A stretch of 64,000 nt of DNA, from positions 62,001 to 126,000 of the forward strand of contig JAUVXE010000004.1 of assembly GCA_030603745.1 (NCBI GenBank). Reading direction: 5' to 3'. The notes under the pieces are model-generated. The model saw only the letters and a list, made by a program, of their open reading frames with translations, did not search any database and was not told the origin of the DNA. Every line of letters starts with the position of its first letter. The stretch's first letter is position 1. Positions 29,751-30,816 of the stretch are shown here, in pieces. The translations under genes were made by a program, and so were the position numbers. The DNA is from Coriobacteriia bacterium (GTDB lineage Bacteria > Actinomycetota > Coriobacteriia > Anaerosomatales > SLCP01).

Positions 29751-30404
29751 TCAGACGGTCACGAACACGTAGCCGTCCCGCACGCTCACCGGATAGGTCG
29801 CCACGTCGGCGCCCGGATGGTCCGTGGTGCCGTCACGGACGTCGAAGCGCCAGCCATGCCACGGGCAGATCGCCGCGTGGCCGTCGAGGAACCCTTGCCC
29901 GAGCGGGCCGAAAGCGTGGCGGCACACGTTGCCGAGTGCGAAGAACTCGTCGCCCACCCGGGCCAGCGCGACCTCGCGCTTACCGATGCGCACGGTGCGC
30001 AGCGTGCCCGGTGGGAACTCGTCGGCCAACGCGACCGGTACCTCGGCGGGGCCTTCGGGCACCTCGATCACGCCGTGCAGCTCGCCGCCGTCCTCGACGT
30101 CCGTCCGGACGAACAGGCCGCACCAGCACTTCCGCAACTTGGCGAACTGGTCGGCGTAGAACGGGATGCACGGGCAGACGATCTTGACGTCTTCCTTGGG
30201 GTCGCCCGTGCGCACCCGGCACGGGCAGTAGACGTCGCCGGCCTCGTCGAGGATCTCGATCTCGGCCTCGAGCACCTCGGCGACGAACTCCTCGTCGTCG
30301 TTGAACCGGTACCCGAGCCGCTCGACGAAGGGCGCCATATAGGCCCTGAGGTCGCCGGCGGTCGTCCCCTCGGGGAACCGTCGGCGCGGTCCTGCGGCGC
30401 TCAC
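29751..30404 (-). CDS. ferredoxin-thioredoxin reductase catalytic domain - Rieske [2Fe-2S] fusion
   Basis: A 217-residue fusion. The N-terminal part (about 15-105) has the cysteine pattern of the FTR catalytic chain: CPCR, then VCPCIP and CWCGLF, which in FTR bind a [4Fe-4S] cluster next to a redox disulfide. The C-terminal part (about 118-215) is a Rieske domain with CRHAFGPLGQG and CPWHGWRFD ligands (C-x-H, C-x2-H). A GTG start overlaps the glutaredoxin stop as GTGA. A plausible role is passing electrons from the Rieske cluster through the FTR centre to glutaredoxin or thioredoxin; this is inference. Confidence 0.85.
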   Translation of the reverse strand: MSAAGPRRRFPEGTTAGDLRAYMAPFVERLGYRFNDDEEFVAEVLEAEIEILDEAGDVYCPCRVRTGDPKEDVKIVCPCIPFYADQFAKLRKCWCGLFVRTDVEDGGELHGVIEVPEGPAEVPVALADEFPPGTLRTVRIGKREVALARVGDEFFALGNVCRHAFGPLGQGFLDGHAAICPWHGWRFDVRDGTTDHPGADVATYPVSVRDGYVFVTV

Positions 30405-30646
30405 AGGTCCAACAGCTCCCGGATCCGCTTCTTGTTGAAGCCCACGATGACCTCGTCACCCATGACCACGACCGGGAACGACGCCCCGCCCGAGAGCTCC
30501 CGCACCTCGGCGATGGCCGCCTCCTTCTCGGCGCCGTCGAGCTTGTCGACCTCGGTCATCTCGTACTCGACCGACGCACTGTCGAGGAACTTCTTGGTCA
30601 TCCGACAGTACGGGCAGGTCGAGAGCGCATAGAGTCGAATCTGCAT
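30401..30646 (-). CDS. glutaredoxin
   Basis: An 81-residue thioredoxin-fold protein with redox motif STCPYCRMTKKFLD (CPYC at about 10-13), a cis-proline region ASFPVVVMGDEVIVGFN, and the family's length. It overlaps the FTR-Rieske gene by 4 bp. Pairs of glutaredoxin and FTR catalytic-type proteins occur in several anaerobes and suggest the FTR-like protein reduces this glutaredoxin in place of glutathione. Confidence 0.93.
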   Translation of the reverse strand: MQIRLYALSTCPYCRMTKKFLDSASVEYEMTEVDKLDGAEKEAAIAEVRELSGGASFPVVVMGDEVIVGFNKKRIRELLDL

Positions 30647-30816
30647 CGGTCCTCCTCGCCGGCGGTGCCGGGTCCGGTCGCTTTCCTGTGCTGTCTATTC
30701 CACAACGGGACCCGGCAGGAACGGAAGATTCGGCGGAGGAGCGGCGCCCCGGGCCGGCTGCGGCGGCCGGATGCCGGTGCGGTGCGGATGTCGCAGGCGC
30801 GCGCTACAATCGCCGC

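Follow-up and report, generated by a model that had tools for sequence, protein, structure and literature searches.

What supplies electrons to a ferredoxin-thioredoxin reductase (FTR) catalytic domain that is joined to a Rieske domain, and which disulfide does it reduce? The question arises from positions 29751-30646 of the window, by which we mean the whole stretch of 64,000 nucleotides that was analysed. This span holds two overlapping genes on the minus strand, encoding a glutaredoxin (Grx) and, directly downstream of it, an FTR-Rieske fusion.

Sequence and fold of the gene pair

The Grx gene (30401..30646, minus strand) starts with ATG and encodes 81 aa, with a match to PF00462 of 51 bits against a Pfam cut-off of 22.9 and the CPYC active site at residues 11-14 (30605..30616, minus strand). 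Its stop codon overlaps by 4 nt the GTG start of the fusion gene (29751..30404, minus strand; 217 aa), for which 46 homologous loci were identified. GAGGAGG (30651..30657, minus strand), 4 nt before the ATG, is the probable ribosome-binding site of this two-gene operon, the pattern itself being not rare in the window. A promoter and terminator scan for the gene pair found none, and the operon includes no electron-donor gene.

The first-pass annotation had proposed the fusion and suggested a domain search for FeThRed_B plus Rieske architectures. Run against Pfam, this search found both domains in the 217-aa ORF: FeThRed_B (PF02943) at aa 21-107 (30084..30344, minus strand; 69 bits, cut-off 22, E 4e-19) and Rieske (PF00355) at aa 122-204 (29793..30041, minus strand; 61 bits, cut-off 20.3, E 1e-16). 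The FTR half carries the cysteine motifs C60-P-C62-R, C77-P-C79 and C93-W-C95, and the Rieske half the ligands C161-R-H163 and C180-P-W-H183, following the pattern C-x-H-x16-C-x-x-H. All six FTR cysteines and four Rieske ligands were invariant in an alignment of 17 proteins, and C-W-C at the FTR site together with a Rieske C-x-H-x16-C-P-x-H was found in 46/46 loci. By homology, the FTR half is expected to bind a [4Fe-4S] cluster next to a redox disulfide and the Rieske half a [2Fe-2S] cluster, a cluster content predicted from sequence.

By sequence, the FTR half is related to the PDB entries 4TPU (E 1e-9), 7PWE and 1DJ7. Its predicted fold, made with a deeper alignment and of moderate confidence (pLDDT 75), had 7PWE, 4TPU, 2PU9 and 1DJ7 as top matches, with no other credible one. 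The Rieske half, of the ferredoxin (oxygenase-system) type, was related in sequence to CarAc (1VCK, E 7e-15) and other dioxygenase ferredoxins; its predicted fold matched 5BOK and 1VCK, with 34-36% identity in the fold search and the same ligand motif. While the CarAc/5BOK type is tied to an oxygenase, the Rieske domain of the window is fused to an FTR and tied to a thiol system.

The plant and cyanobacterial FTRs (1DJ7, 2PU9) share the catalytic fold and the six-cysteine pattern with the window protein, but the latter has C-W-C instead of C-H-C, an extra Rieske domain, Grx rather than thioredoxin as its neighbour, and no variable chain. The absence of that chain, remarked on in the first-pass annotation, held in the wider sample as well, with PF02941 detected in 0/31 genomes, including the window's own, while a Synechococcus control gave the expected match.

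Distribution of the fusion

Across 298 genomes sampled from the class, the fusion was detected in 58 of about 70 Anaerosomatales genomes and in 0 of about 228 others, and many of the roughly 12 Anaerosomatales genomes that lacked it are incomplete. It is thus an order-wide trait of Anaerosomatales (Coriobacteriia; lineage OPB41 in named contigs), the isolates of which are obligate anaerobes (PMC9686372). Sampling was systematic within Actinomycetota, and a single scan extended to all genomes, with patterns that are specific to FTRs of the C-W-C type. A remote relative of 38% identity and low GC (L077) also has the Grx and FTR-Rieske pair, each gene with a ribosome site of its own. An assembly or frameshift chimera is ruled out, as the fusion is present in many genera across the order and in this distant relative; the fusion is real and far beyond chance. 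No description of it was found in the open-licence literature. As to its source, we found the fusion to have no relative among viruses or phages, and plasmid matches were confined to the Rieske half. The pair also provides a marker and a redox module for the Anaerosomatales (OPB41), which are widespread in the subsurface and of which few cultures exist.

The glutaredoxin partner

In 45 of the 46 named-contig loci, the gene just upstream of the fusion, on the same strand, encodes Grx, and the 46th ends at the contig end, so that no complete FTR-Rieske locus lacked Grx. The other neighbours vary far more among the 46 loci (NfeD/SPFH in about 20, an ABC ATPase match in 38, a divergent MBL gene in 5). 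Grx of the same kind was also upstream of 30/30 rubredoxin-fused FTRs and 3/3 unfused FTRs sampled elsewhere in Actinomycetota. The nearest solved chains to the Grx of the window are 3IC4, 3NZN, 5CAX and 7PWE. The last of these, from Desulfotalea psychrophila, resembles the window pair in coupling Grx to FTR; there, however, both are part of one chain of 196 solved residues (Grx 6-82, FTR 96-176), which leaves no room for a Rieske domain, while Grx has its own gene in the window.

The coupling of the fusion to the neighbouring Grx, as first proposed, is therefore well supported by the conserved operon, the Grx shared with the rubredoxin analogues, a split operon in genome G617 (see below) and 7PWE. 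The coupling is one-sided: a Grx orthologue has been kept in three Anaerosomatales genomes with no detectable FTR (G022, G033 and G018; loci L134, L135 and L136), while none of the complete fusion loci was without Grx. From these three genomes it follows that Grx is probably also reducible by a second route. The resolution of the Grx tree was too poor to date the Grx-FTR pairing.

The Grx orthologues without FTR would also suit a reductase that acts in the cell on thioredoxin, or on many different disulfides, instead of the adjacent Grx; FTRs classically reduce thioredoxins, and TrxA is encoded beside TrxB in the genome. We regard this as very unlikely, given that the Grx-FTR adjacency is near-invariant in three FTR architectures, that 7PWE joins the two in a single chain and that TrxA already has TrxB as its pair.

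One-electron carriers joined to FTRs

The closest known counterpart of the fusion is the ferredoxin:disulfide reductase (FDR) of Methanosarcina acetivorans (4TPU), which likewise has a one-electron iron carrier C-terminal to an FTR catalytic domain. The carrier of 4TPU is a rubredoxin with one Fe, whereas the C-terminal rubredoxin that defines Methanosarcina-type FDRs is absent from the window protein, where a Rieske [2Fe-2S] domain takes its place. The active sites also differ (C-Y-C in 4TPU, C-W-C in the window protein), and the two FTR domains fall into separate clades. The fusion is a new form within the FTR/FDR kind, conserved and real, with Rieske where its relatives have rubredoxin. Besides FTRv/ferredoxin docking and rubredoxin, it provides another type of electron carrier attached to an FTR centre.

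Within Actinomycetota, rubredoxin is C-terminal to FTR in many genomes, in 1-2 copies, and Tyr or Phe is the middle residue of C-x-C in these proteins. As the Rieske FTRs form a clade of their own, there is no support for Rieske having recently replaced rubredoxin within the rubredoxin-FTR clade.

A phylum-wide search picked up neighbouring FTR and Rieske matches in the distant genome G617, where four adjacent genes on one strand (L140, G617:C69, 1468-2710) encode Rieske, Grx (CPWC), FTR (CWC) and again Rieske. The G617 FTR falls within the clade of the fused FTRs (support 97/89), its exact place being unsure because of a long branch. Rieske and this FTR clade are therefore linked both in fused and in unfused form. 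In G229, rubredoxin-type cysteines lie on the N side of the FTR, so that FTRs have repeatedly been joined to one-electron carriers. FTRs without a variable chain thus repeatedly carry a one-electron iron protein, which suggests a general rule by which such an FTR is flanked by a one-electron iron carrier and, on the opposite side, by a glutaredoxin. With versions that are fused or split, and N-terminal or C-terminal, electron entry into chain-less FTRs becomes directly testable.

This recurrence bears on what the Rieske domain does. In plant FTR, ferredoxin docks directly on the FTR, and the canonical enzyme works without an extra carrier. Ferredoxin might dock in the same way on the FTR domain of the window protein, with the Rieske domain acting as a sensor or gate that drains electrons or blocks the reductase once oxygen or a high redox state has oxidised it; Rieske potentials normally lie above FTR potentials, which would suit such a drain or sensor. 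A shut-off under oxidation would also be plausible in obligate anaerobes (PMC9686372). We nevertheless consider this role doubtful, since no FTRv chain is left and since the position of the Rieske domain is taken elsewhere by rubredoxin, in 1-2 copies, or by the separate Rieske genes of G617, which a carrier fits better.

Proposed route of electrons

With the carrier role preferred, the pair is likely to work as an FDR, that is, an FTR without variable chain, with a Rieske relay replacing rubredoxin and Grx as its substrate. The Methanosarcina FDR reportedly reduces a Grx-like methanoredoxin, with rubredoxin proposed as the relay (Prakash et al. 2018). That paper is among the references of PMC7278568. 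By analogy, the Rieske cluster would be the most plausible entry point of electrons, and would most likely feed the FTR centre, which in turn would reduce the partner Grx. In such a chain, the Rieske [2Fe-2S] cluster would be reduced by a one-electron donor in the anaerobic cell, for which a low-potential ferredoxin is the most likely candidate, and the Rieske domain would hand single electrons to the [4Fe-4S]/disulfide centre (by homology C60, C62, C77, C79, C93 and C95). The cysteine exposed at the active site, which homology identifies as C62, could then attack the CPYC disulfide of Grx to give a mixed disulfide, from which a second electron would free the reduced Grx, and this would go on to reduce proteins of the cell. 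Direction, donor and Grx as substrate are what we infer from the comparisons above.

Rieske ferredoxins have potentials of about -150 mV and the disulfides of FTR and thioredoxin of about -230 to -320 mV. Without tuning of the cluster or a strong donor, the step from Rieske to FTR would therefore run uphill, a difficulty equally raised by the rubredoxin of FDR. Typical potentials would instead make downhill a flow in the opposite sense, from reduced Grx thiols through the FTR centre and the Rieske cluster to a further acceptor, and Rieske ferredoxin relatives such as CarAc do pass electrons to oxygenases. This reversal seems highly improbable to us: the operon has no acceptor gene, obligate anaerobes have no obvious need for an oxygenase, and characterised FTR/FDR enzymes run toward disulfide reduction.

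While keeping the direction toward Grx, we also consider, tentatively and as the less probable case, a Rieske entry relay whose electrons come not from low-potential ferredoxin but from another donor, such as a flavoprotein reductase of the type that serves Rieske ferredoxins. If so, protein-thiol reduction in an anaerobic actinobacterial order would draw on a redox pool with no earlier link to FTR chemistry.

Other thiol routes in the genome

The chain had also been described as self-contained and independent of NADPH and glutathione. The first of these terms is too strong, as the upstream donor is an inferred one. The second is supported only in part: GCS2-type gshA, the type that the search covered, was found in 0/26 genomes, the window's own included. 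On the other hand, the same genome has an NADPH-type thioredoxin reductase (TrxB) adjoining a thioredoxin (TrxA) as well as a GshB-like ligase domain (found in 10/26 genomes), and Grx is kept elsewhere without FTR. The FTR-Rieske/Grx chain is therefore one of several thiol routes. With the GshB-like ligase present and GCS2 not found, we make no firm claim on glutathione synthesis as a source of reductant.

The GshB-like ligase (PRK12458) of this genome follows QEGLA (DUF1704)-like and N-formylglutamate amidohydrolase-like genes (L115, 78-3891, plus strand), the latter two labels being our reading of the ORFs. The genome also encodes a second flavoprotein resembling thioredoxin reductase (L116, 2250-3545, minus strand), which scored 240-251 bits, under the TIGR01292 cut-off; its HRRxxxR NADPH motif is seemingly missing, and it is possibly not NADPH-linked.

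Further FTR types and in-frame TGA codons

A second FTR type (CPCFEPSG...CHCTLF), with no Grx upstream, was observed in some Anaerosomatales and in one other genome (L106, L108, L109 and L110); its C terminus is extended by about 100 aa that have no Pfam match, as tested on L108. An FTR with rubredoxin-type cysteines at its N terminus, the reverse domain order, occurs in L103 (1841-2296, minus strand), also with no Grx upstream.

Among the rubredoxin-fused FTRs, the last Cys codon of C-x-C is an in-frame TGA in 13 of 30. These are C-Y-C proteins in L024, L081, L084, L085, L093-L095, L098-L100, L102, L104 and L105. The TGA probably encodes selenocysteine, and FTR selenoproteins are already known (NF041072; PMC13188914).
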